This document shows positions 5,435 through 56,372 of a stretch of 64,000 nt of DNA, piece by piece. The stretch is from assembly GCF_036967205.1 (NCBI RefSeq), contig NZ_CP146022.1, positions 6,386,001 through 6,450,000 of the forward strand. Reading direction: 5' to 3'. Origin of the DNA: Streptomyces sp. Q6 (GTDB taxonomy: Bacteria > Actinomycetota > Actinomycetes > Streptomycetales > Streptomycetaceae). The position numbers and the translations under genes were made by a program. Below the pieces are notes generated by a model. The model worked only from the letters and a program-made list of their open reading frames with translations, searched no databases and was not told where the DNA came from. The first letter of the stretch is position 1. Each line of letters starts with the position of its first letter.

Positions 5435-7597
5435 TCAGCCTTGCACCGCGAGGACCAGCGGCAACACCCCCTCGGCGCCGGCCCGACGCAGCAGTCGGGC
5501 CGCCATGGCCAGCGTCCAGCCCGTCTCCATGAAGTCGTCGACGAGCAGCACCGGCCCGTTCGCGCGCGCGAGCGCCTCGGCCAGCTCGGGAGGCAGCGTC
5601 AACGTACCGTCCAGGGCTCGCAGCCGCTGTGCGCTGTTGCTGCGCGGGATGTGCGCGGTGTCGCTGCCGGGCGCGTACGCGATCCGGCCCAGCAGCGGCA
5701 TACGTCCGACCTGCGCGATGCCGGCGCCCAGCGATTCGATCAGCTGCGGTCGGGTGTGGGACGCCATGGTCACCACGCCCACGGGACGCGGCGTGGCATC
5801 GGGGGCGCCCGACGCCCAGCCGCCCGGCCCCTTCGCCCAGTCGGCCAGGACCTCCACGACCGCCCGCGCCACGTCGTCCGGCACCGGGCCGTCCGGAGCC
5901 TGGGGCGTGAGCATGGGGCGCAGCCTGTTGCCCCAGCCGATGTCCGAGAGCCGGCCGAGCGCCCGCCCCGTGCCCGCCTGCTCGCCCGCCGGGATCCGGC
6001 CCTTCAGGTCGATGCCCACGGCCGTGAGTCCGGTGGGCCACATCTTGCGGGGCTCCACGTCCACACCCGGTCGCCCGAGCTCGCCCTTGGCCGAGGTCAG
6101 CGCCTGCGGCGAGACGTCGGTCGTGAACCTCGGCTCCACGCAGTTGTCACAGCGGCCGCAGGGGGCCGCCGCCTCGTCGTCCAGCTGGCGGCGCAGGAAC
6201 TCCATGCGGCAGCCGCTCGTCGTCGCGTAGTCGCGCATCGCCTGCTGCTCCGCCTCGCGCTGCTTGGCGACCCACGCGTAGCGCTCGGTGTCGTACGCCC
6301 AGGGCTGCCCGGTGGAGATCCAGCCGCCCTTGACCCGGTGCACCGCCCCGTCCACGTCGAGGACCTTGAGCATCGTCTCCAGACGCGAGCGGCGCAGCTC
6401 CACAAGAGGTTCGAGCGCCGGGAGCGAGAGGGGCCTCTCGGACTGCGCGAGCACGTCCAGGGTGCGTCGGACCTGCTCTTCCGGCGGGAAGGCGAGGGAC
6501 GCGAAGTAGCGCCAGATCGCCTCGTCCTCCTTGCCCGGAAGCAGCAGGACCTCGGCGTGCTCCACACCACGCCCCGCGCGGCCCACCTGCTGGTAGTACG
6601 CGATCGGTGACGAGGGAGAGCCCAGGTGCACGACGAACCCCAGGTCCGGCTTGTCGAAGCCCATGCCGAGCGCGGAGGTGGCGACCAGGGCCTTCACCCG
6701 GTTCGCGAGCAGGTCCTCCTCGGCCTGCTGCCGGTCGGCGTTCTCCGTCTTGCCCGTGTACGAGGTGACGGTGTGCCCGCACTGCCGCAGGTAGGCGGTG
6801 ACTTCCTCCGCGGCGGCGACCGTGAGGGTGTAGATGATCCCGGAACCCGGCAGCTCGTCCAGGTGATCGGCGAGCCAGGCCAACCGGTGCGCGGCGTCGG
6901 GAAGTTGCAGGACACCCAGGCTCAGGCTCTCTCGGTCGAGAGGTCCGCGCAGCACGAGCGCGTCGGAGTTTCCGCCCGTGCCCAGCTGGTCGGCGACGTC
7001 GGCCGTCACGCGCGCGTTGGCTGTCGCCGTCGTGGCCAGGACGGGGACGTCCCGCGGAAGCTCGGCCAGCATCGTGCGCAGGCGTCGGTAGTCGGGGCGG
7101 AAGTCGTGCCCCCAGTCGGAGATGCAGTGCGCCTCGTCGACCACCAGCAGGCCGGTGGCGGCGGCGAGCTGCGGCAGCACATTGTCCCGGAAGTCAGGGT
7201 TGTTGAGCCGCTCCGGGCTCACCAGGAGCACATCGACCTCACCGGCGGCGACCTCGGAGCGGACGGCGTCCCATTCCTCGGTGTTCGACGAGTTGATCGT
7301 GCGGGCGCGGATTCCGGCGCGCTCGGCGGCCTCCACCTGGTTGCGCATCAGGGCGAGCAGCGGGGAGACGATCACGGTCGGGCCGCTGCCGCGCTCACGC
7401 AGCAGGGCCGTCGCCACGAAGTACACCGCGGACTTGCCCCAGCCGGTGCGCTGCACGACGAGTGCACGTCTGTGGTCGGCGACCAGCGCCTCGATCGCGC
7501 GCCACTGGTCCTCACGCAGCCGGGCGGTACCGCTCGGATCTCCGACGAGGCGGGCGAGGACGACATCGGCGGCAGTCCGTAGGTCTTCGTTGCTCAT
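5435..7597 (-). CDS. recQ: RecQ-family ATP-dependent DNA helicase with C-terminal phosphoribosyltransferase-like domain
   Basis: 3'-5' DNA helicase used in recombination repair and fork rescue. From ATG 7597 it has 720 residues. Helicase motifs: Walker A TGWGKSAVY (about residue 53), DEAH-box VVDEAHCISDWGHDFRPDY, motif III ATTATANARV, and motif VI QQVGRAGRG. A RecQ zinc site follows (CGRCDNC, with an upstream Cys in SGCRMEFL). After about residue 490 there is no HRDC domain. Instead the last 200 residues end in VLLVDDFMETGWT, a PRPP-binding loop typical of type I phosphoribosyltransferases such as ComF. The fusion is clear in frame. The role of the PRTase part is unknown; it may be a nucleotide-sensing or degenerate domain. 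Two DnaA boxes lie just upstream. Confidence 0.92.
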   Translation of the reverse strand: MSNEDLRTAADVVLARLVGDPSGTARLREDQWRAIEALVADHRRALVVQRTGWGKSAVYFVATALLRERGSGPTVIVSPLLALMRNQVEAAERAGIRARTINSSNTEEWDAVRSEVAAGEVDVLLVSPERLNNPDFRDNVLPQLAAATGLLVVDEAHCISDWGHDFRPDYRRLRTMLAELPRDVPVLATTATANARVTADVADQLGTGGNSDALVLRGPLDRESLSLGVLQLPDAAHRLAWLADHLDELPGSGIIYTLTVAAAEEVTAYLRQCGHTVTSYTGKTENADRQQAEEDLLANRVKALVATSALGMGFDKPDLGFVVHLGSPSSPIAYYQQVGRAGRGVEHAEVLLLPGKEDEAIWRYFASLAFPPEEQVRRTLDVLAQSERPLSLPALEPLVELRRSRLETMLKVLDVDGAVHRVKGGWISTGQPWAYDTERYAWVAKQREAEQQAMRDYATTSGCRMEFLRRQLDDEAAAPCGRCDNCVEPRFTTDVSPQALTSAKGELGRPGVDVEPRKMWPTGLTAVGIDLKGRIPAGEQAGTGRALGRLSDIGWGNRLRPMLTPQAPDGPVPDDVARAVVEVLADWAKGPGGWASGAPDATPRPVGVVTMASHTRPQLIESLGAGIAQVGRMPLLGRIAYAPGSDTAHIPRSNSAQRLRALDGTLTLPPELAEALARANGPVLLVDDFMETGWTLAMAARLLRRAGAEGVLPLVLAVQG

Positions 7598-7648
7598 GCC
7601 CCCATGCAACCCGATGGCACCGACATCGCGCGAACGAGCCCGCCGACC

Positions 7649-7690
7649 TGTGGACAACTCGTGTCGTGTCCCTGACTGAGGTTATCCACA
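7649..7690. promoter_or_regulatory. Pair of DnaA boxes in the recQ / DUF4192 divergent region
   Basis: TTGTCCACA on the minus strand (7649-7657), the form favoured in Streptomyces, and a perfect TTATCCACA on the plus strand (7682-7690). They face each other about 24 bp apart. The nearby 5' ends of recQ and the DUF4192 gene make DnaA-linked control plausible. This is inference from motif only. Confidence 0.55.
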
Positions 7691-7730: not shown

Positions 7731-8186
7731 ATGACGAATCACAGCCAGCCCGCCGGACAGACCGGCGAGGCAAAGATCACCCTGCGCACCGCCGGTGAAC
7801 TCGCCGAGGCGCTCCCGTACTTGCTCGGATTCCGGCCGGACGACAGCGTCGTTCTGGTCGCCCTGCATCAGGGGAGGTTCGGCGGCAGGGTGCGCATCGG
7901 AATTCCCGAGCGCCCGCAGGACTGGGCGTCCGTCGCGCAGCAGATGGCCCGCTGCCTGATCGGCGAGTGCGAGCGCAGGGACGGGCGCCCCGACAGCGTG
8001 GTCGCCTTCCTGTGCCAGGACGGCACGCCCTCGGGAGCGCGATCGGGCCGGCAGGTCATGGAGCGGCTGCGCCCCCTCGCCCAGCTGCTGCGGACGGCCT
8101 GTGGCGGCCTCGACGTGCCGGTCACGGAAGCACTGTGCCTCTCCGAGGGCAGGTACTGGTCCTACTGCCTTGCTCTAGCGGCTTGA
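7731..8186 (+). pseudogene. DUF4192 protein, N-terminal fragment (gene split by integrated element)
   Basis: The first 146 codons (to 8168) of a DUF4192 protein: ITLRTAGELAEALPYLLGFRPDDSVVLVALH is the family N-terminus. At the motif YWSYC the gene meets the left attachment core, then runs five foreign codons (LALAA) to a stop at 8186. The rest of the gene resumes in exactly the same frame after the right core (11245-12225), giving an intact 472-residue protein if the element is excised. Start ATG 7731 is chosen on sense; a TTG at 7716 with a better-placed CAGGAG is possible. DUF4192 has no assigned biochemical function. A truncated 151-residue product may still be made. Confidence 0.9.
8153..8168 (+). 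repeat. attL core (16-bp direct repeat, left copy)
   Basis: GTACTGGTCCTACTGC, identical to 11229-11244. The bases on either side differ (G before and C after here; A before and T after at the right copy), so 16 bp is the exact crossover-identity segment. It encodes YWSYC of the host protein. Confidence 0.93.
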
Positions 8187-8214
8187 CCTGCAAAGACGTG
8201 GCACGTCGCGCTAT

Positions 8215-8235
8215 TGGCTGGCACTCTCCTGGCAC
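8215..8235 (+). repeat. Integrase arm-type site, left copy
   Basis: A 21-bp sequence beginning TGGCTGGCACTC, repeated exactly at 11102-11122 in the same orientation. It contains two TGGCAC hexamers 5 bp apart. It lies 46 bp inside the left core, right at the integrase stop codon, where integrase or excisionase arm binding is expected. Confidence 0.75.
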
Positions 8236-8236
8236 A

Positions 8237-9502
8237 TCAGGCTGCAAGCCGGAGCGCGCCCAACACGCCCTGCACGGCGTCGGCGGTCGTGTCGGGGACG
8301 TCGTCCCACAGGTGCACGTACACGTCGAGCGTGGTGCTGGGCTTGCTGTGCCCTAGACGGCGTTGGACGACCTTCACGGACTCGCGGTGCTGGATGAGCA
8401 TCGACGCGTAGAAGTGTCGAAGGGAGTGCATGGACGTGCCGACTGGCACGGGCGCGTGCCCAGCGGCCGTCAGCCGCGTGTTCGCTCGCTTGACGGTGTT
8501 CGACCACACGCGCGACCAGTTCCCTGTGTTGAGCGCGTTGCCGTGCCCGTTCGCGAACACCAGACGCGCTGGGCGGCTGTGTGGCTTACGAGTATCGGTG
8601 CGGTCGACCAACTCGACCGGCACGGGAGGGAACGCCGCCAGGTGCGCCCGTAGGGCTTCCACAACAGCAGGGGCGAGCGGCACCGACCGGTACGAAGCCT
8701 GCGTCTTGGGTTCACCGATGAAGGGCGCCCCCTTGTCCAAGCGGACAAGCTGCGACCGCACGTGCACCACACCGGCTTCAAGGTCGACGGCGCTCCGCTC
8801 CAGCCCCAGCAGCTCACCGAGCCGAAGACCTGAACCGGCGGCAAGCCAGACGAGTGCCCGGTACCGGGGCGGTGCCGAGAGCGCGAGCGCTTGCACCACG
8901 GGCAGCGGCAGGGGCTTGATCTCGGGTCGTGTTACGTCCGGGCCTGGTACGCGCATCGCGGGTGACTTCGGAATGTAGTCGTGGACGACGGCGTGCGTGA
9001 GCACGGCTTTGAACCGGCCGTAGACGATTTCAAGGGTGCTGGCTGCTAGGTCGTCTTTCCGGTCGCTCAGCCATCGCTCGATGTCCAGCCGCTTGATCTG
9101 GCCTATCTGGCGTCCGCCCAGGTACGCCAACACGTGACGTTCGAGCTGCCTGCGGGCTCCCTCGGCTGTGGTTAGCCGATGCCTATTCGCCCCAGCCTCC
9201 AACTTCAGCCACTCTTCTGCGACTTCGCGGAGCGTCTTGCGTGCTGCTTCAGGGTCTACGAGCGCGCCCCGGTCTAGGTCGTGGCCGGTCTTGCGCGCGA
9301 ACTGGTCGGCAAGTCCCTTACTTGCAAAGGACTTTCGCCGCGCCGTTTTGTTGCTATCCCGATAGCGGACCGACCAGCGTTTCGTGTCGCCGTGCGCTGC
9401 CGTGGCGTACACGGTCTTGGTCTTGGTGCTGTGCGAATGGCACGGCGTCGCGTCGGGATTTCGGGGGCGGCTCGAATGCCACCTGTCGCTGACTGTAGCC
9501 AT
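8237..9502 (-). CDS. int: Tyrosine site-specific integrase
   Basis: Recombinase of about 421 residues that would integrate and excise the element at the 16-bp core. It has an N-terminal arm-binding region (YRDSNKTARRKSFASKGLAD), a SAM-like core-binding domain at about residues 75-165, and a catalytic domain. Active-site residues visible in order are Arg in SGLRLGELLGL, the His-x-x-Arg box HSLRHFYAS, His in LGHSKPSTT, and the tyrosine nucleophile in LDVYVHLW. ATG 9502 is preferred: residues upstream of it in the open frame (to 9643) look non-coding. Its 3' end abuts the left attachment site, as is common for these elements. Divergent from the HTH genes at 9731. Confidence 0.95.
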   Translation of the reverse strand: MATVSDRWHSSRPRNPDATPCHSHSTKTKTVYATAAHGDTKRWSVRYRDSNKTARRKSFASKGLADQFARKTGHDLDRGALVDPEAARKTLREVAEEWLKLEAGANRHRLTTAEGARRQLERHVLAYLGGRQIGQIKRLDIERWLSDRKDDLAASTLEIVYGRFKAVLTHAVVHDYIPKSPAMRVPGPDVTRPEIKPLPLPVVQALALSAPPRYRALVWLAAGSGLRLGELLGLERSAVDLEAGVVHVRSQLVRLDKGAPFIGEPKTQASYRSVPLAPAVVEALRAHLAAFPPVPVELVDRTDTRKPHSRPARLVFANGHGNALNTGNWSRVWSNTVKRANTRLTAAGHAPVPVGTSMHSLRHFYASMLIQHRESVKVVQRRLGHSKPSTTLDVYVHLWDDVPDTTADAVQGVLGALRLAA

Positions 9503-9730
9503 TTCGAAACTCTTTGCGCTCGGCCCCCCTGGCTTTGCTGGCACCCACTCTACCGCTGCACCCCGACACCGAAGCAGCAAGATTTTTTTAGCGCACCGAA
9601 AGTTCGCTGACCTGCGAAAACCTCTTACCCATTTCGCTAACAATTCCAGCGCGAGAAAGCCGACCAGAACCTCTTCCCAAGCTGGGCAAAGTGCCGCAGT
9701 GTGAGAAAGGAGAAGGAAGGGAACCGAAAA
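9503..9730. other. Divergent control region between int and the HTH operon
   Basis: 228 bp without a gene and noticeably AT-richer than the rest of the window (includes a run of seven T near 9583). It must hold the promoters for int (minus) and for the excisionase-like gene (plus). GGAAGGGAACC upstream of ATG 9731 serves as the ribosome site. I see no clean palindrome. Confidence 0.5.
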
Positions 9731-9916
9731 ATGGAAAAACTCCTTACCGTCCGTCAGCTAGCCGAATACCTGGACGTACCCATCCAGACCCTCTACATGT
9801 GGTCCCACCTCGGAACCGGCCCCACGCCCATCAAAGTAGGGCGCTGCCTTCGATATGAACCGGCCGAAGTACGTTCCTGGCTTGCCGCATCGAAGAAGAA
9901 GGAGGCGACGGCATGA
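9731..9916 (+). CDS. Excisionase / AlpA-like helix-turn-helix protein
   Basis: 61 residues: MEKLLTVRQLAEYLDVPIQ..LYMW, then a wing GRCLRYEPAEVRSWL. This is the MerR-like winged helix found in AlpA and Xis proteins beside actinobacterial integrases. Such proteins bend attachment-site DNA to direct excision and may regulate. Start ATG 9731 has GGAAGG upstream. The stop overlaps the start of the next gene (ATGA, 9913-9916), so the two are translationally coupled. Confidence 0.85.
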   Translation: MEKLLTVRQLAEYLDVPIQTLYMWSHLGTGPTPIKVGRCLRYEPAEVRSWLAASKKKEATA

Positions 9917-10101
9917 CCAACCGTATCCCGCGTCAACTCCTGTCCGGAGGCGAAGTGGCCGCACTCCTAGGCGTCGACCCCAAGACCGTCACCAGGTGGG
10001 CCAACCTCGGCAAACTGCCATGCTTTCGCACTCCTGGAGGGCACCGGCGGTACCGGCGCGCCGACGTAGAACGACTCACGCGCAGCGGTGATGCCTCATG
10101 A
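9913..10101 (+). CDS. BldC-like MerR-family DNA-binding protein
   Basis: 62 residues. LLSGGEVAALLGVDPKTVTRWANLGK followed by RTPGGHRRYRRADVERL is the single winged-helix fold of BldC, a small Streptomyces regulator that binds direct repeats cooperatively. Copies like this are common on actinobacterial integrative elements, where they probably control excision or replication genes. Coupled by ATGA overlaps to the genes on both sides (9913-9916 and 10098-10101). Confidence 0.88.
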   Translation: MTNRIPRQLLSGGEVAALLGVDPKTVTRWANLGKLPCFRTPGGHRRYRRADVERLTRSGDAS

Positions 10102-10481
10102 TCGCAGGAATCTTCGACCTCACAGAAACCTTCCAGGCAGACGGCGGCAAACTACTCGTACTCACACCGGTAATAGCCGACTCACTGCCCACCGCCTCGA
10201 AACAGGCAATGGCCATTCGCAACTCGGCATCCACCACAGGGGACGTGGGTCTTGGACTCATCCAACAGATACGTTCTGATTTCGATGGTCCACCAGGCAT
10301 CGCTGAAGGCGCTCAGCTCGGCGCTTGGGTTCCCCTCCACAATGATCCCGCTCCGCATGTGGGTCCCTCGCCCTGGGAACCTCGCAGGTCGGCAGACGAC
10401 CCAGAAGTTGGACACCTTGACGTCGGCCGCCCCACGGTTTATCGCGTGCACATCGTATTGTCGAGCGCCAGCCTTCGGTGA
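10098..10481 (+). CDS. Uncertain ORF, possibly the 5' stump of a deleted element gene
   Basis: It starts at an ATGA overlap with the BldC-like gene, which argues that its first codons (MIAGIFDLTETFQADGGKLL) were once a real coupled gene. After about residue 30 the sequence turns irregular and runs antisense to a more convincing minus-strand gene (10182-10616). The simplest reading is that a longer gene here, such as a replication or transfer gene, lost its body by deletion. No domain can be named. Confidence 0.3.
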   Translation: MIAGIFDLTETFQADGGKLLVLTPVIADSLPTASKQAMAIRNSASTTGDVGLGLIQQIRSDFDGPPGIAEGAQLGAWVPLHNDPAPHVGPSPWEPRRSADDPEVGHLDVGRPTVYRVHIVLSSASLR

Positions 10482-10616
10482 AAGGTGAGGCATGGTGCTG
10501 ACTAGAGCCACGCGAGGGCGGCCACGCCGAAACGTCGCGACTGCCGTGGCGAGGCTTCCAGCTGCCATGAGCCCTGCCCAGCCACTGATGACCAGGGCTA
10601 CCTGTGCGGTCTCCAT
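10182..10616 (-). CDS. Small membrane-anchored protein of unknown function
   Basis: 144 residues. One N-terminal membrane helix at about 5-28 (VALVISGWAGLMAAGSLATAVAT) is followed by a basic RRGRPR stop and a beta-rich domain (RQYDVHAINRGAADVKVSNFWVVC, then GIIVEGNPSAELSAFS). Proteins of this shape occur on many actinobacterial mobile elements, but their role is not established. GGGGGAG lies about 10 nt upstream of ATG 10616. The last 30 residues, rich in Cys and Gly, look less typical and may have been changed by a deletion. Accessory cargo of the element. Confidence 0.6.
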   Translation of the reverse strand: METAQVALVISGWAGLMAAGSLATAVATFRRGRPRVALVSTMPHLSPKAGARQYDVHAINRGAADVKVSNFWVVCRPARFPGRGTHMRSGIIVEGNPSAELSAFSDAWWTIEIRTYLLDESKTHVPCGGCRVANGHCLFRGGGQ

Positions 10617-10756
10617 AGGACGTTAGCTCCCCCTTCGCTTGCAGCCCCGAGCAGGCGACGCACGCTTCTCCTGTCGTTCACTCGCCAGCACCCTCGGATG
10701 GTTCCCAACGCCCGCCACGGAGACTAGAGACCGTGCGGGGGCGCACGCGCGGCTGA

Positions 10757-11047
10757 CTAGTCGTCGTCCGTCGGAAGGCCGTTGACCCAAACTTCGACGG
10801 TCGTCTCGAATGGGGTTCCCATGGCGGCTAGCCGCTCATTGACCGTCTCGCTGACGTCGCCAGTCAGGGACTGGGCAAGGTGCAGCATGTCGTCAGGGTG
10901 GATGGACCGTCGAGTCGCGACTGGCCCCATAAACGACACGGTGGGTTCAAGCTCTCGTGCCAGCGTTTTGAAAACCTCGCTCGCCTGGCGTGCCTGGTCG
11001 TTCCTGGCGACGAGCGTGATTCTGGTTCGGACATCGTCGTCTGTCAT
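10757..11047 (-). CDS. Small acidic protein of unknown function
   Basis: 96 residues, soluble and acidic, beginning MTDDDVRTRITLVARNDQ. No signal or membrane segment. The pattern of hydrophobic residues suggests an alpha/beta ferredoxin-like fold (TRITLVAR ... SEVFKTLARELE ... PFETTVEVWV), but no family is recognised. It is the last gene before the right attachment site and so a candidate cargo gene. The opposite-strand 97-residue ORF is a shadow. Confidence 0.6.
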   Translation of the reverse strand: MTDDDVRTRITLVARNDQARQASEVFKTLARELEPTVSFMGPVATRRSIHPDDMLHLAQSLTGDVSETVNERLAAMGTPFETTVEVWVNGLPTDDD

Positions 11048-11101
11048 GGCGCTTCGCCTGCCTTCCTTGGCCTAAGTATCCGGCGATGACCAGAAGGTAG
11101 C

Positions 11102-11122
11102 TGGCTGGCACTCTCCTGGCAC
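11102..11122 (+). repeat. Integrase arm-type site, right copy
   Basis: Exact second copy of the 21-bp sequence at 8215-8235. It lies 106 bp inside the right core. In the circular form the two copies would flank the attP core (106 bp on one side, 46 bp on the other) in the same orientation. Confidence 0.75.
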
Positions 11123-11228
11123 GAGCCTGCGAAAAACAGCAGTAGAGAACCGAAGCTCAGTGGTAGTAAAAACGCAGGTCAGCGCCATGTCTGCGACGTT
11201 GTTGCTGGTAGCTGCGGTGTGTAAATAA

Positions 11229-11244
11229 GTACTGGTCCTACTGC
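11229..11244 (+). repeat. attR core (16-bp direct repeat, right copy)
   Basis: GTACTGGTCCTACTGC, identical to 8153-8168. The following codon (11245) continues the DUF4192 reading frame. Confidence 0.93.
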
Positions 11245-12225
11245 TGCCCGCGCCCCGAGTGCTGCCCGCCCGAGGGGAACGCCATCGACACCGAGGGCAC
11301 CTCGGTGATGGCGGCGACGGCGGCGTACGCGGGCATCCAGGTACGGCCATCCGTCCAGGAGGTGCGCATGCGCCTCGCCCCGTGGGAGACCGCCCTCGTC
11401 ACCGAGCAGACGCGAGCCCTGGACGCGGCGGCGATGGATCTCGTCCCGAGGATCATCGGGGGTGTCCCGCGCGAGGAGGTGGAGGCCGACACCCTCGACC
11501 TGGCCCGCCGCGTCCTGTGGCGGCTCGCCGAGGCGCCGCAGGACGCGGAACCGCTGGAGGCGGACCGCAAGGACGACGAGCTGGTGGCGCACGACGAGGC
11601 CGCCGCGGTGATCCTCGGCCTCCAGGACCGGATCACCCGGGACCGGGCGGCGGAGTGGATGGAGGGCGAGGAGGCGCGCGCCGCGCTCCGGCTCTGGCGG
11701 GCCCTGGCCCGACGGTGCGTCGGACCGTACGAGGAGTACGCCGCGGCCCCCTTGTCCCTTGCCGGGTGGGTGGCCTGGTCGCTCGGTGACACGGTCGAGG
11801 CGGATCAGGCACTGGAGATGGCCCTCGCCGTCGACCCCGGGTACGTGTTCGCCCGCCTGCTCAACGAGGCGCGGGCCGACGGAGTCGACCCCGAGCTCGT
11901 CCGGCGCTCCCTGCGAGGCAAGCGGGCGGACAGGGCCGACGACGAGCCGACGGCGGAGAGCGACGGAAGCGGTGGGAGTGGCGGAGATGACGGCCGCGAC
12001 GGAGGGGACGACAGCCGTGACGCGTTTCTTCTCGCACCGCGCGGATCCGCGGTGGACCCGGGCATGTCGCGCGCCGCGCGTGGTCTCGAAGCCGCGCTGC
12101 GGCGGCGGGGCGAGCGCAGCCCCGGGGCGGGGACGAGGCCGGGTGGCCGATCGGGAGTACGCCCGCCCCGGCGCCCCACGAGCCGTCGCCGCGTCGGCCG
12201 ACAGCGGACAAGGCGCGACGGATGA
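11245..12225 (+). pseudogene. DUF4192 protein, C-terminal fragment
   Basis: The remaining 326 codons of the gene begun at 7731: CPRPECCPPEGNAIDTEGT directly follows the YWSYC of the core. Family features continue, e.g. DDELVAHDEAAAVILGLQD and RLWRALARRCVG. The last 90 residues are Gly/Asp/Arg-rich and probably disordered. While the element is in place this half has no native start codon. Expression would need excision or an internal start such as ATG 11305. Its sequence shows no decay, which points to recent insertion or regular excision. Confidence 0.88.
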
Positions 12226-12545
12226 GCGGCGCCGCAGGGGCACTCCGGAGCCGCTTCACTGCGCTATGGCGTTACTTGGGGCGGGGCAGCTCCGTTCACC
12301 TCGGTGGCGGTAGCGACGGCCGGGCCGTGCCGCCTCCGTGTTCACCAGTCCGGCAGGATGCCGGCGCCTCGCGCGACCGCGCGCGAAAGGAGGCGCCTCA
12401 TGCGGCAGTCGGAGCTTCGACCGACCCCCGGTGCGGGCCCGGGGGGCCGGCGGGCGTGCATCGGCGGACAGATCTTCGGGCACGGCCACCGGATCGGGCG
12501 GACAGGCGCACCACGCGCGGCGTGCTTTCGGGGAGGGGAAGGGTG
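12226..12545. other. Region before the debranching-like gene
   Basis: About 320 bp between the DUF4192 end and the next large gene. The only coding signal is the short ORF at 12400-12546. The first 170 bp show nothing beyond generic high-G+C sequence and would hold the promoter. Confidence 0.5.
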
Positions 12546-12546
12546 A
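12400..12546 (+). CDS. Possible 48-residue leader ORF coupled to the debranching-like gene
   Basis: ATG 12400 follows a perfect ribosome site (AAAGGAGG, 12386-12393) at 6 nt spacing. The ORF ends at TGA 12544-12546, overlapping the next start as TGATG. Such strong initiation signals seldom occur by chance. The product is Gly/Arg-rich with two Cys (RRACIGGQIFGHGHRIGR) and matches nothing I know. It could be a real small protein or a leader that couples translation. Confidence 0.4.
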   Translation: MRQSELRPTPGAGPGGRRACIGGQIFGHGHRIGRTGAPRAACFRGGEG

Positions 12547-14729
12547 TGGCGCCGGACATCGGGGGCCGACCCCTGCCCGACGGAGGCAGTGCCCACCGCA
12601 CGCCACCGCAGGTCACTGCGGCGTCCACAGGGCGCTCCCCGCTTCCAGCCGCGCCTGCGGGGCGCTCCACTCCTCCATCGGTCACGCCCGCCGGGCGCTC
12701 CACACTTCCACCGGCCATGGCCGCGGGGCGCCCCACGCTTCCCCCCACCGGTCCGCCACCCGCGCCCGCGCGGCGGCCGACCGGTCAACTCCCGCCCGCG
12801 CACCAAGCGTTGATCTGCGTCTCGCTCCCCGGGCTCGCCATCTCCTCCGACGGAGGGCAGTTGACGGCGCAGGGCCTCGAAGGCTTCTACCGCGGCGGCC
12901 GGCGCCTCCTGTCGCGCTGCCGGATCCGGGTGGCGGGGCGCGAACCGCAGCCTGTGCAGGCGCGGATGGTGACGGCCGACCGAGCCCGCTTCGTGGGGAC
13001 CGTGCGCGCGTCCCCCGACGCGGGCCCCGACCCGGACGTCGTCGTCGAGCGGTTCCGGCATGCCGACGGCACAGAGCGGATCACGCTGCACAGCTCGGCA
13101 TCCCGCCCGCTCCGCCTGCCTCTGGAAGTCTCTCTCGGCACCGATCTCGCCGAACTCGGAGCAGTGGCCGCGGGAATGCCCGGTCGCGAACTGCCCGCGA
13201 CGGTCCATGACACCGGCATGCGATGGTCGTCGCCCACCGGGTTCACCGTCGTCACCGCGACACCTCCACCGATGGACGCCCTCGCCTCGGCAGGGCTGTT
13301 GCGCTGGGAGTTCGACCTGCCGCCCGGCGGCGCGCACACCGTGGAGCTACGGATCCGGGCCGACGGCTCGGGCATCGGCAGAGCCGGGGGGCACAGCACG
13401 GTGAAGCCGTTCGCCCCGGCCCGCGCGCACGGCGACGATCCGCGCGTGGCGCCCTTGCTGGGGACCTGCGTCGACGACCTCCAGGCGCTGCTGGTGCGCG
13501 ACCCCGCGCATCCGCTCGACATCTCCCTCGCGGCCGGCGCGCCGTGGCGCTGCGGCCCCGCCCCGGCGGAGTCGTTGGCGGCCGCGCGGATGGCCCTGCC
13601 TCTCGGGACGCGGTTGGCGGCCGGCACCCTGCGCGCCCTGGCCCGCACGCAACTGACCGAACCGGGACCGGAGTTCGGTCGAATTCCCGGGCCGCTGCGC
13701 AACGTGGGCCCCCAGCTGCCGCCCAGCTGCACCGGCATCGAGGCCACGCTGTTGTTCCCCGTCCTCCTGGCCGAGGCCAGACGGTGGGGGCTCGTCGAGC
13801 AGGAGGTCACGGAGCTGCTGCCCGCCGCCGAGAGGTGCCTCCGCTGGCTGCGCGCCGCCACTCGTGAAGGGCCGTATCTGCCGGACCCCGGTCCAGGTGG
13901 TCCCGTGCGCTGCGAGACCCAGGCACACGCCCACCGGGCCGCGCTCCTCGGTGCCGAGCTGCTCGACGCCTACGACCGACCCGGCGGTGCCGAACTGCGC
14001 CAGTGGGCGGACGGACTGCGTACACACTTCCGTCAGGACTTCTGGGTCGAGGACCGGGGAGGCGGAAGACCGGCGGCCGCGCGGACCGCGGACGGGCGCC
14101 CCCTGCCGCACCTGAGCGGCAGCGCCGCCCATCTGCTGGACACCGGGCTGCTCGCCGCAGGGGCGTGCGCACCGGGCCTGCTGGACAAGGTGCAGACCGA
14201 ACAACTGGCCCGACTGCTGGGCGGACCGGGCCTGGACTCGGGCTGGGGGCTGCGCAGTCTTGCCGTGAAGGAGGCGTCGTACAACCCGTTCGGGCACCGC
14301 GCCGGCGCGGTGCGCGTCCACGAGACGGCGGTCGCCGTCGCGGGCCTGGCCGCCGCCGGCTACGAGAAGGAGGCGTCGTCCCTGCTCAAAGGCGTCCTCG
14401 GTGCCGCTGAGACCTTCGCGTACCGGCTGCCCGAGATGTACGCGGGGGAGCAGCGCATCGAAGGCAGTGCCCCGCTGCCGCATCCCGCCGCCTGTAGACC
14501 GGCCGCCGTCGCGGCGGCGGCCGGGGTGCACCTGCTCGCCACCCTCGTGGGCATCCGCCCGGACGTGCCCGCCCGAACGGTGACGCTGTCCCCGCTGCGT
14601 AGCGCGCCCCTCGGCGAGGTCGGGCTCGCGGGCCTGCGCGTGGCCGGACACGCCTTCTCGGCGCGCGTCAGCAGACTCGGCCTCGCCATGGTCGAGGAGG
14701 CTGCGGACGTCCTGCAATTGGGGGTGTGA
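12546..14729 (+). CDS. Glycogen debranching enzyme-like protein (GDE N-terminal domain plus helical C-terminal domain)
   Basis: 727 residues from ATG 12546, which follows GGGGAGGGGAAGGG. The first 85 residues are a Pro-rich repeat tail. From about residue 88 comes the N-terminal beta-domain of bacterial amylo-alpha-1,6-glucosidase-like proteins (LAISSDGGQLTAQGLEGFYRGGRRLLSRCRI, a clear family signature). After about residue 320 an Ala/Leu-rich alpha/alpha-toroid follows with AEARRWGLVEQEVTELLPAAERCLRWL and VKEASYNPFGHRAGAVRVHETAVAVAGLA. The protein probably acts on an alpha-glucan, but I cannot point to the catalytic acids with certainty, so activity is unproven. No signal peptide: cytoplasmic. 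Confidence 0.8.
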   Translation: MAPDIGGRPLPDGGSAHRTPPQVTAASTGRSPLPAAPAGRSTPPSVTPAGRSTLPPAMAAGRPTLPPTGPPPAPARRPTGQLPPAHQALICVSLPGLAISSDGGQLTAQGLEGFYRGGRRLLSRCRIRVAGREPQPVQARMVTADRARFVGTVRASPDAGPDPDVVVERFRHADGTERITLHSSASRPLRLPLEVSLGTDLAELGAVAAGMPGRELPATVHDTGMRWSSPTGFTVVTATPPPMDALASAGLLRWEFDLPPGGAHTVELRIRADGSGIGRAGGHSTVKPFAPARAHGDDPRVAPLLGTCVDDLQALLVRDPAHPLDISLAAGAPWRCGPAPAESLAAARMALPLGTRLAAGTLRALARTQLTEPGPEFGRIPGPLRNVGPQLPPSCTGIEATLLFPVLLAEARRWGLVEQEVTELLPAAERCLRWLRAATREGPYLPDPGPGGPVRCETQAHAHRAALLGAELLDAYDRPGGAELRQWADGLRTHFRQDFWVEDRGGGRPAAARTADGRPLPHLSGSAAHLLDTGLLAAGACAPGLLDKVQTEQLARLLGGPGLDSGWGLRSLAVKEASYNPFGHRAGAVRVHETAVAVAGLAAAGYEKEASSLLKGVLGAAETFAYRLPEMYAGEQRIEGSAPLPHPAACRPAAVAAAAGVHLLATLVGIRPDVPARTVTLSPLRSAPLGEVGLAGLRVAGHAFSARVSRLGLAMVEEAADVLQLGV
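12630..12745 (+). repeat. Imperfect ~30-bp tandem repeats coding a Pro-rich tail
   Basis: Four units, each starting GGGCGCTCC or GGGGCGCYCC, at about 12630, 12659, 12693 and 12726. They encode GRSPLPAAPA, GRSTPPSVTPA, GRSTLPPAMAA and GRPTLPP. The length is likely to vary between strains through replication slippage. Confidence 0.75.
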
Positions 14730-55595: not shown

Positions 55596-56372
55596 CTAGT
55601 CCGTCCGCGACGTCACGAGCGCGAACTGCGCTCCCTCGGGGTCGGCCACCGTGGCCACCCGCCCGTACGAACCGTCGCGCGGCGGCTTGATCACATGACC
55701 GCCCAGGTCCGCGACCCGCTCCACGGCCTCGTCCACATCGGCGACCTCGAAGTACGTGATCCAGTACGCGCCGCGATCGCGCGGCAGGGCGTTCCCCACG
55801 CCGTGCACGGACGCCACCGGGTGCTCCTCCAGGAGCAGCGTCAGGTAGTCGAAGTCGGCGGAGACCACGGCCTCTTCGGCGTATCCGAAGACCGCCTGGT
55901 AGAACTTGCCGACGCTCGCCGTCTCCCGCGTCACCAACTCGTTCCACGCCACCGCGCCCGGCACCCCGGTCACCGCCATGCCCAGGTGCGCCGCGGCCTG
56001 CCAGACGCCGAACACCGCGCCCGCCGGGTCGGAGCCGATCGCCATCCGGCCCGCCTCGCCCGCGTCGAGCGGGCCGACGCCCACCGTGCCGCCGCAGTGC
56101 CGGACCGTCTCCGCCGTCGCGTCCACGTCGTCGGTGGCCAGGTACGGGGTCCAGGCGACCGGCAGGTGGCGGTCGGGCGGCAGCTGGCCGATGCCGGCCA
56201 CTTCCTTGCCGTTCAGGAGCGCCCGCGCATACGGGCCGAGCTGCTGCGGCCCCGGCCTGAACTCCCAGCCGAACAGCGCCCCGTAGAACTCCTGGCTCGC
56301 CGTCAAGCTGTGCACCATCAGACTCACCCAGCACGGTGTGCCCGGTGCGCGCCGGGCTGCTGCCTCGGTCAT
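55596..56372 (-). CDS. VOC family protein (glyoxalase-like, CFP-30B type)
   Basis: 258 residues from ATG 56372 with GGAGAGAG upstream. Two vicinal-oxygen-chelate domains in tandem, about 10-125 (TPCWVSLMVHSLTASQEFYGALFGWEF) and 138-250 (WNELVTRETASVGKFYQAVFGY ... ADPEGAQFALV). Related to the mycobacterial 30-kDa secreted antigen family; no signal peptide here. Some metal His/Glu positions are missing, so substrate binding without catalysis is possible. Confidence 0.9.
   Translation of the reverse strand: MTEAAARRAPGTPCWVSLMVHSLTASQEFYGALFGWEFRPGPQQLGPYARALLNGKEVAGIGQLPPDRHLPVAWTPYLATDDVDATAETVRHCGGTVGVGPLDAGEAGRMAIGSDPAGAVFGVWQAAAHLGMAVTGVPGAVAWNELVTRETASVGKFYQAVFGYAEEAVVSADFDYLTLLLEEHPVASVHGVGNALPRDRGAYWITYFEVADVDEAVERVADLGGHVIKPPRDGSYGRVATVADPEGAQFALVTSRTD

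Follow-up and report, generated by a model that had tools for sequence, protein, structure and literature searches.

Integrative elements in protein-coding genes

Mageeney et al. 2020 reportedly described regulated gene integrity elements, in which a gene is split by an element and can be restored through excision; the sigK skin and comK are cases of this kind. The element analysed here occupies 3,076 bp of a 64,000-nucleotide stretch of the Streptomyces sp. Q6 genome (NZ_CP146022.1, positions 6,386,001 to 6,450,000; this whole stretch is called the window below), where it splits a gene for a DUF4192 protein. We consider it, with high confidence, to be a minimal member of a Streptomyces family of integrative genetic elements with tyrosine integrases, inserted into the DUF4192 gene.

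Integration into coding genes has ample precedent. As far as the available text of the TIGER/Islander study goes, 43.4% of islands lie in protein-coding sequences (PMC12424338), and the portion at hand of a survey of Streptomyces counts 14 protein-coding, 36 tRNA and 1 intergenic insertion sites (PMC9513070). Islands in many cases reconstitute their target, according to a further, likewise partial, source (PMC12884075). Given the counts in the first two of these sources, a coding-gene target is not novel. The sequence-only reading, made from the letters of this DNA without database searches, had drawn attention to a coding motif as the target instead of a tRNA gene; the coding target stands, and a tRNA target is ruled out because a tRNA gene search of the window found none, but the choice of target does not set the element apart.

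The element resembles the genomic islands in coding genes (PMC12424338, in the part available) in its terminal integrase, short identical att repeats, coding target and empty site in relatives. It differs in being only 3.1 kb long, in carrying no recognisable transfer, replication or packaging genes, and in leaving its target broken. Actinomycete integrative and conjugative elements (AICEs), in the excerpted survey (PMC9513070), also have a tyrosine integrase and an excisionase-type gene, and some of their sites are in protein-coding genes; the element described here, however, has no traB/FtsK-type or replication gene among its annotated open reading frames (ORFs) and is not classed as an AICE. 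Phage satellites resembling the phage-inducible chromosomal islands (PICIs) have genes for packaging or capsid redirection and a replication module, neither of which was found among those ORFs.

A repeat-bounded insert splits DUF4192

The interrupted gene and the boundaries of the insert are as follows:

7731-8168, + strand: left half of the DUF4192 gene, codons 1-146 (PF13830 profile positions 2-119, E = 6.2e-29)
8153-8168, + strand: attL core, GTACTGGTCCTACTGC (exact repeat, 0 of 100 shuffles)
11229-11244, + strand: attR core, GTACTGGTCCTACTGC (exact repeat)
11230-12225, + strand: right half of the DUF4192 gene to the stop codon (PF13830 profile positions 115-321, E = 4.7e-46)

The insert is bounded by two perfect copies of GTACTGGTCCTACTGC, and the description of a 3.08-kb element between two copies of a 16-bp core is thus exact. 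The match ends at base 16 of the repeat, with no identity between the flanks beyond it. The window contains exactly these two copies and no other at up to two mismatches, and a chance repeat is ruled out by the lack of any match in 100 shuffles. The same two are the only exact copies in the whole genome, which has 10 more places with one or two mismatches. The insert also stands out in base composition (62.9% G+C, compared with 70.7% for the window), and the 3,076-bp stretch of lowest G+C in the window, taken in 100-base steps, starts at about 8100, the position of the insert. A transposon or insertion sequence is ruled out: the ends are direct repeats, and no transposase catalytic domain was found. 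A repeat-bounded insert that splits DUF4192 is thereby confirmed.

When the flanks are joined with one copy of the core, the predicted product is an open frame of 472 codons, from the ATG at 7731 to the stop at 12223-12225, in agreement with the sequence-only reading. The PF13830 profile ranges of the two halves overlap only around the core, which places the break inside one domain. At present the left half runs into five element-encoded residues (LALAA) and then the stop at 8184-8186; the frame of the right half has a TAG at 11209-11211, six codons ahead of the core, and its first later start is a GTG at 11305. DUF4192 is therefore broken at present. The genome of strain Q6 contains two PF13830 matches, as expected from the two halves, and so no intact DUF4192 copy is seen there.

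The separated halves had been said to show no decay. The 472 joined codons indeed contain no stops and no frameshifts. The ratio of nonsynonymous to synonymous substitution (dN/dS) against the related genome G312 is 0.16 for the left half and 0.22 for the right domain, whereas G312 and G059, an intact pair, give 0.11 and 0.14 (handles beginning with G, C and L are ours, for genomes, contigs and loci). These slightly raised values give no sign of strong decay, as judged by a comparison that is powerless against a recent insertion, and the claim stands only in that reduced form.

Empty sites in other Streptomyces genomes

The distribution of the core was followed in a sample of 392 Streptomyces genomes, one per species and including that of Q6, of which 390 contain PF13830 and two have no match to it. 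The exact 16-mer GTACTGGTCCTACTGC is present in 19 of the 392: two copies in Q6 and one in each of 18 others (the search took exact matches only, so that occupied sites whose core differs would escape it). The number of genomes is unremarkable by itself, because the same 16-mer read backward, used as a control, also gave 18 matches (10 forward, 8 reverse). The remarkable point is that the core lies inside DUF4192 every time. In all 18 other genomes it encodes YWSYC within DUF4192, in the same protein context (ALC...RYWSYCC).

All but one of these other genes run through the site without a break. In 17 genomes no stop interrupts the frame for 247 codons or more from the core onward, and the gene aligns to the joined protein in one piece; the remaining one, the draft G119, has 25 open codons, is frameshifted downstream and aligns in three pieces. 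The nearest DUF4192 orthologues (among the loci fetched, out of 390) are in G312 (75% identical) and G059 (70%), both of which have the core and no insert. In Streptomyces sp. BHT-5-2 (NZ_CP081497.1) both flanks match in two pieces at 73%, with 4,015 query bases corresponding to 939 bases of that record, or 3,076 fewer. A natural empty attB thus exists in other species. The sequence-only reading had let its excision model hang on finding an uninterrupted gene at this position, and such genes were found in other species (17 of the 18 open). Because these relatives carry the uninterrupted gene with the core, excision from Q6 would be predicted to recreate the state of related species.

Eleven genomes with split or weak PF13830 matches were searched again. 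A large gap was found only in G192; in G032 and G205 the gene is cut near contig ends, and in the rest the main matches lie within about 1.4 kb. In G192 (G192:C9, about 78996-115272; L134-L136) an insert of about 36.3 kb interrupts DUF4192 elsewhere, near positions 58-61 of the profile, and comes with an 18-bp repeat, CCCGAGCGGATGGTCGCC. The frame beside the right junction of that insert reads, by eye, like the C-terminus of an integrase, and G192 falls outside the 27 genomes in which a related integrase was detected (E <= 1e-60; see below). Two different inserts have therefore struck DUF4192 at two positions in two species. The 16-mer also occurs in 19 viral contigs, which we take as chance from the size of the collection.

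A literature search found no published function for DUF4192; the single paper that it returned concerns a Paenarthrobacter genome. The insertion is a natural disruption of a gene of unknown function that is present in 390 of the 392 sampled Streptomyces genomes.

Integrase and its relatives

The element encodes a full-length integrase at its left end:

8237-9502, - strand: P0001, tyrosine integrase of 421 aa (Phage_integrase, E = 1.6e-19; phrog_1, E = 7.8e-63)

Its catalytic residues R227, K266, H359, R362, H385 and Y395 are invariant in nine aligned sequences, and with this complete R-K-H-R-H-Y set P0001 is assigned by sequence to the tyrosine integrases. A related integrase (E <= 1e-60) is present in 27 of the 392 genomes, that is in Q6 and 26 others, at 39-50% identity. 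We examined 28 loci, comprising the regions of all 26 relatives and two more distant ones from the Q6 genome itself (L137 and L138); L130 and L139 were too short for the integrase tree.

The largest group of relatives, 11 of the 26 (L116-L119, L121-L124 and L126-L128), occupies the 3' end of yajQ, the core falling on its last codons. These integrases are 47-49% identical to P0001, a tRNA-Tyr gene is nearby in 10 of the 11 loci, and the yajQ product (one copy tested) is a DUF520/YajQ protein (PF04461, E = 1.5e-60). The junction of L120 is not at yajQ. L131 occupies the 5' end of a gene for an ATP-dependent DNA ligase, and N-terminal coding pieces of the ligase gene recur at the far end of the element, which seems to supply a replacement start for that gene. 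In L109-L115, L120 and L129 the related integrases end beside a GC-rich, terminator-like stretch. DUF4192 was seen as the site in none of the 26 relatives, sites being established only for those with mapped ends.

Both ends could be mapped in 10 of the 26 relatives, namely nine at yajQ (L116-L119, L121-L123, L127 and L128) and L131, and these elements span 8.0-14.5 kb. L110 has a less certain att site, a terminator-like repeat of 30 bp at a distance of 15.1 kb; L139 has an integrase with an internal stop and a 15-bp repeat 5.0 kb away. In L109, L117 and L118 the tested genes encode, among others, Prim-Pol, D5_N, DUF3987, XRE regulators, an FtsK-like protein (in one element) and a terminase-small-subunit-like protein. 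The yajQ elements examined for this, L117 and L118, both have replication-type genes, and L118 combines a primase-like gene with XRE regulators and a terminase-small-subunit-like gene; from their gene content, it is possible that the yajQ elements are phage satellites.

Attachment-site architecture

The element and relatives of it share the layout of the sites around the core:

8184-8192, + strand: motif TGACCTGCA inside attL, with ACCTGC at +17 from the core (the sole + strand copy in the window)
8215-8235, + strand: putative left arm-type site TGGCTGGCACTCTCCTGGCAC, a GGCAC-N6-GGCAC pair (perfect 21-bp repeat of 11102-11122)
11102-11122, + strand: putative right arm-type site, the same letters as 8215-8235 (21-bp repeat)
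11174-11181, + strand: motif GCAGGTCA, -55 from the right core and inverse to the motif at 8184 (GCAGGT is near the same end in mapped relatives)

The GGCAC pairs, with members 11 bp apart, lie at +51/+62 and -122/-111 relative to the core. The window has two + strand occurrences of GGCAC-N6-GGCAC, one close to either end of the element, and a single one on the - strand, at 56101, against an expected mean of 0.62 for both strands. The arm pair is at the 3' end of the integrase gene in 23 of the 28 loci examined. In seven yajQ elements the pairs are at +45 to +47/+56 to +58 on one side and at -120 to -124/-109 to -113 on the other, so that the left and right arm spacings in the window both match those of relatives; on this layout the element belongs to a GGCAC-arm integrase family, as we define it here. 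In L119 and L128 the right arm led to a copy of the core some 122 bp beyond it, with 13 and 12 matching bases out of 14, respectively; the scan for exact repeats had not picked these up.

The inner motifs also recur. Counting the window, ACCTGC is within 130 bp of the integrase stop in 21 of 29 loci, and at the opposite end GCAGGT is close by in 9 of the 10 that were mapped. Together with the bases to its left, the core forms GCAGGTA-CTGGTCC-TACTGC, in which an imperfect inverted repeat encloses 7 bases, the arrangement that the core of a tyrosine recombinase should have; the overlap would then be 7 bases long. The GGCAC pairs we infer to be the arm sites of the integrase. With its integrase, arm sites and a single core within DUF4192 in 18 other genomes, the element is well described as a small integrative element with a 16-bp core, which is how the sequence-only reading had put it.

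The yajQ elements thus share with the element in Q6 the helix-turn-helix (HTH) gene divergent from the integrase gene (described below), the GGCAC-N6-GGCAC arms and similar spacings. They differ in size (8.0-14.5 kb in the nine mapped) and in lying at the end of a gene that stays readable, whereas the element in Q6 breaks its gene in the middle. What is unusual about the latter is its size of 3.1 kb together with this mid-gene break.

Other genes on the element

Four further ORFs were annotated:

9731-9916, + strand: P0002, excisionase-type HTH_17 protein of 61 aa, divergent from the integrase gene (HTH_17, E = 3.5e-8; phrog_66 "excisionase and transcriptional regulator", E = 3.4e-9)
9913-10101, + strand: P0003, BldC-family winged HTH protein of 62 aa (NF033787, 83.4 bits against a cut-off of 77, E = 7.2e-24)
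10182-10616, - strand: P0004, ORF of 144 aa with a hydrophobic-looking N-terminal stretch (no family match)
10757-11047, - strand: P0005, orphan ORF of 96 aa (coding-like G+C by codon position)

The start of the P0003 gene overlaps the stop of the P0002 gene. P0002 is likely to be a recombination directionality factor, and a gene resembling it is divergent from the integrase gene in 16 of the 28 loci. The best matches of P0003 among solved structures are 6AMA/6AMK, which are structures of BldC (PMC11963761, in the part available). By sequence, P0002 and P0003 belong to the same HTH_17/BldC fold group as RdfS, phage Xis and BldC; the sources at hand, as excerpts, describe a winged HTH fold common to the three, all of which oligomerise along DNA (PMC11963761, PMC5859096). 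Because of this common fold, P0002 or P0003, or both, could be the directionality factor. Within the relatives' loci, P0003 mostly picks out the gene that P0002 also matches; two further hits are weak.

A second BldC-like stretch occurs in the Q6 genome, where G000:C1:4099687 matches the P0003 gene at 72% in DNA; judging from the sequence, we take this to be the chromosomal bldC, to which the mobile copy would be additional. The HTH of P0003 has weak similarity to IS607-type transposase models (NF033518, 29.8 bits, the cut-off being 110) and to phrog_6620 "transposase" (E = 2.9e-6), and these similarities are confined to the shared HTH, as far as the sequences indicate. The MADS defence system was also rejected: the PADLOC mad1 HTH matches P0003 (E = 8.7e-14) and P0002 (E = 9.7e-6) over the HTH only, the NCBIfam MAD1 scores are far under the cut-off (29 against 80), and the other MADS genes were not found on the element.

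P0004 and P0005 have no Pfam, PHROGs, NCBIfam or PADLOC match at E <= 0.1, no counterpart in the relatives' loci and no match on plasmids. P0004 has weak matches in 7 of 347 other genomes (348 searched), where the weak homologues are in longer open frames. P0005 has no match in 391 other genomes, and its single-sequence fold (mean predicted local distance difference test score, pLDDT, of 71) has no structural match at E <= 0.001. P0006 (10098-10481, + strand) was rejected as a gene, since it overlaps P0004 and lacks a coding-like pattern of G+C across codon positions. In Pfam, PHROGs, NCBIfam and PADLOC searches of the annotated ORFs, no dedicated replication, packaging, capsid or transfer gene was found, and the statement that the element lacks replication and transfer genes holds to that extent.

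Proposed mechanism and alternative readings

The simplest model is that a circular form of the element would recombine through its attP core with the conserved 16-bp stretch of DUF4192, acting as attB, to yield attL and attR with DUF4192 broken. The integrase, presumably active, would bind the distal GGCAC-N6-GGCAC arm pairs together with the core, in a heterobivalent and lambda-like manner. The divergent P0002, perhaps together with the BldC-like P0003, would direct excision, and this would restore DUF4192 precisely. Transfer between cells would be passive or helper-aided, because no transfer gene was recognised. As a compact integrase, HTH and att cassette mapped to the base, with an attP design common to a Streptomyces element family, the element could serve as a small site-specific integration tool.

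Several observations weigh against this account of a minimal integrative element. Neither a circular form nor an excision product was observed. No second copy of the element was found in any other genome, and its movement is deduced only from features of the family. Identity to the nearest integrase is only 50%, and the branch of P0001 in the tree is long and unsure in its placement; L131, the other long branch beside it, has no arm pair at its integrase gene. The pair is likewise not at the integrase gene in L132 (cut by a contig end), L137, L138 and L139, which makes 5 of the 28 loci. Finally, 9 of the 28 yielded no P0002-like gene; in two (L137 and L138) it is on the same strand as the integrase gene, and in one (L110) it is far off.

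The alternative that survives best is that the element is a decayed remnant, in which internal deletion stripped a larger element, like the relatives of 8-15 kb, of its replication and cargo genes and left the integrase, the HTH genes and the att sites. We regard this as a serious possibility, at somewhat less than even chances. The ten fully mapped relatives are all larger (8.0-14.5 kb), and three relatives have replication-type genes (Prim-Pol, D5_N or DUF3987), regulators and, in one, an FtsK-like gene. Streptomyces AICEs reduced to a partial integrase and cargo are known from the excerpted survey (PMC9513070), and the longer open frames of the weak P0004 homologues point the same way. Against decay, the integrase, the HTH genes and the att arms on either side are undamaged, and no remnant of a broken gene was recognised on the element; P0004 and P0005 have no counterpart among the relatives, and P0003 matches there are mostly to the gene matched by P0002. 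The remnant and minimal-element readings are not exclusive: the element is possibly derived from a larger one.

It is improbable that the element is a minimal helper-dependent phage satellite, and the proposal in the sequence-only reading of a new class of small satellite was not borne out: no gene devoted to packaging, capsids or replication turned up among the annotated ORFs, and there is no known helper. The gene set of the integrase relative L118, with its primase-like, XRE and terminase-small-subunit-like genes, speaks for a satellite, as does a match of P0003 to phrog_57 "terminase small subunit" (E = 1.7e-5; P0002, 0.048). That match, however, lies over the HTH and is far weaker than the matches of P0003 to BldC and to excisionases, and the other ORFs have no packaging or capsid match below 0.01. 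In the PHROGs DNA-metabolism class, P0002 and P0003 match DNA-binding proteins of the HTH type. The phage and viral-contig matches listed include no close integrase, five isolated-phage records in the 60-80% band being outside that list.

A reversible DUF4192 switch of the regulated gene integrity kind, which had also been raised, would require host-timed excision, perhaps under BldC-like control, that restores the gene at a developmental stage. This we hold to be very unlikely. Precise restoration is possible in principle, the halves being free of stops and frameshifts, and the element encodes a BldC-family regulator, BldC being a protein that governs entry into development (PMC5859096, in excerpt). 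In-frame restoration does not support a switch, however, because any conservative site-specific insertion into a gene would give it, and intact flanks are equally expected from a young insertion; the winged HTH folds of the BldC type are also those of excisionases (PMC11963761, in excerpt). Conserved occupancy was not found, two exact cores being present in 1 of the 392 genomes while 390 have DUF4192, and there is no sign of regulated excision or other positive evidence for a switch. A self-contained 3-kb switch, whose integrase and BldC-like regulator would excise it with Streptomyces development and so re-enable DUF4192 in one cell type, is likewise very unlikely. The earlier interpretation as a whole is partly supported.

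Matches beyond the genus and neighbouring genes

In searches of wider collections the integrase had three matches in genome contigs and two in viral contigs, at 24-26% identity. An alignment-based scan of viral contigs gave a best identity of 38% among the best 80 kept, a number that undercounts members. For isolated phages, the 20 matches listed of 383 are 26-30% identical, and the 10 listed of 1,384 in a second search are 28-33% identical. On plasmids (20 of 47 matches listed) the identity of the integrase is at most 39%. Among the matches listed in a literature search on Streptomyces integration in coding genes or yajQ, no title or abstract opening describes this element.

On either side of the interrupted gene are two genes of other kinds. 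A RecQ-like helicase with a phosphoribosyltransferase-like end is encoded divergently from DUF4192 at 5435-7657, and a gene with a glycogen-debranching N-terminal domain is at 12222-14729 on the other side.

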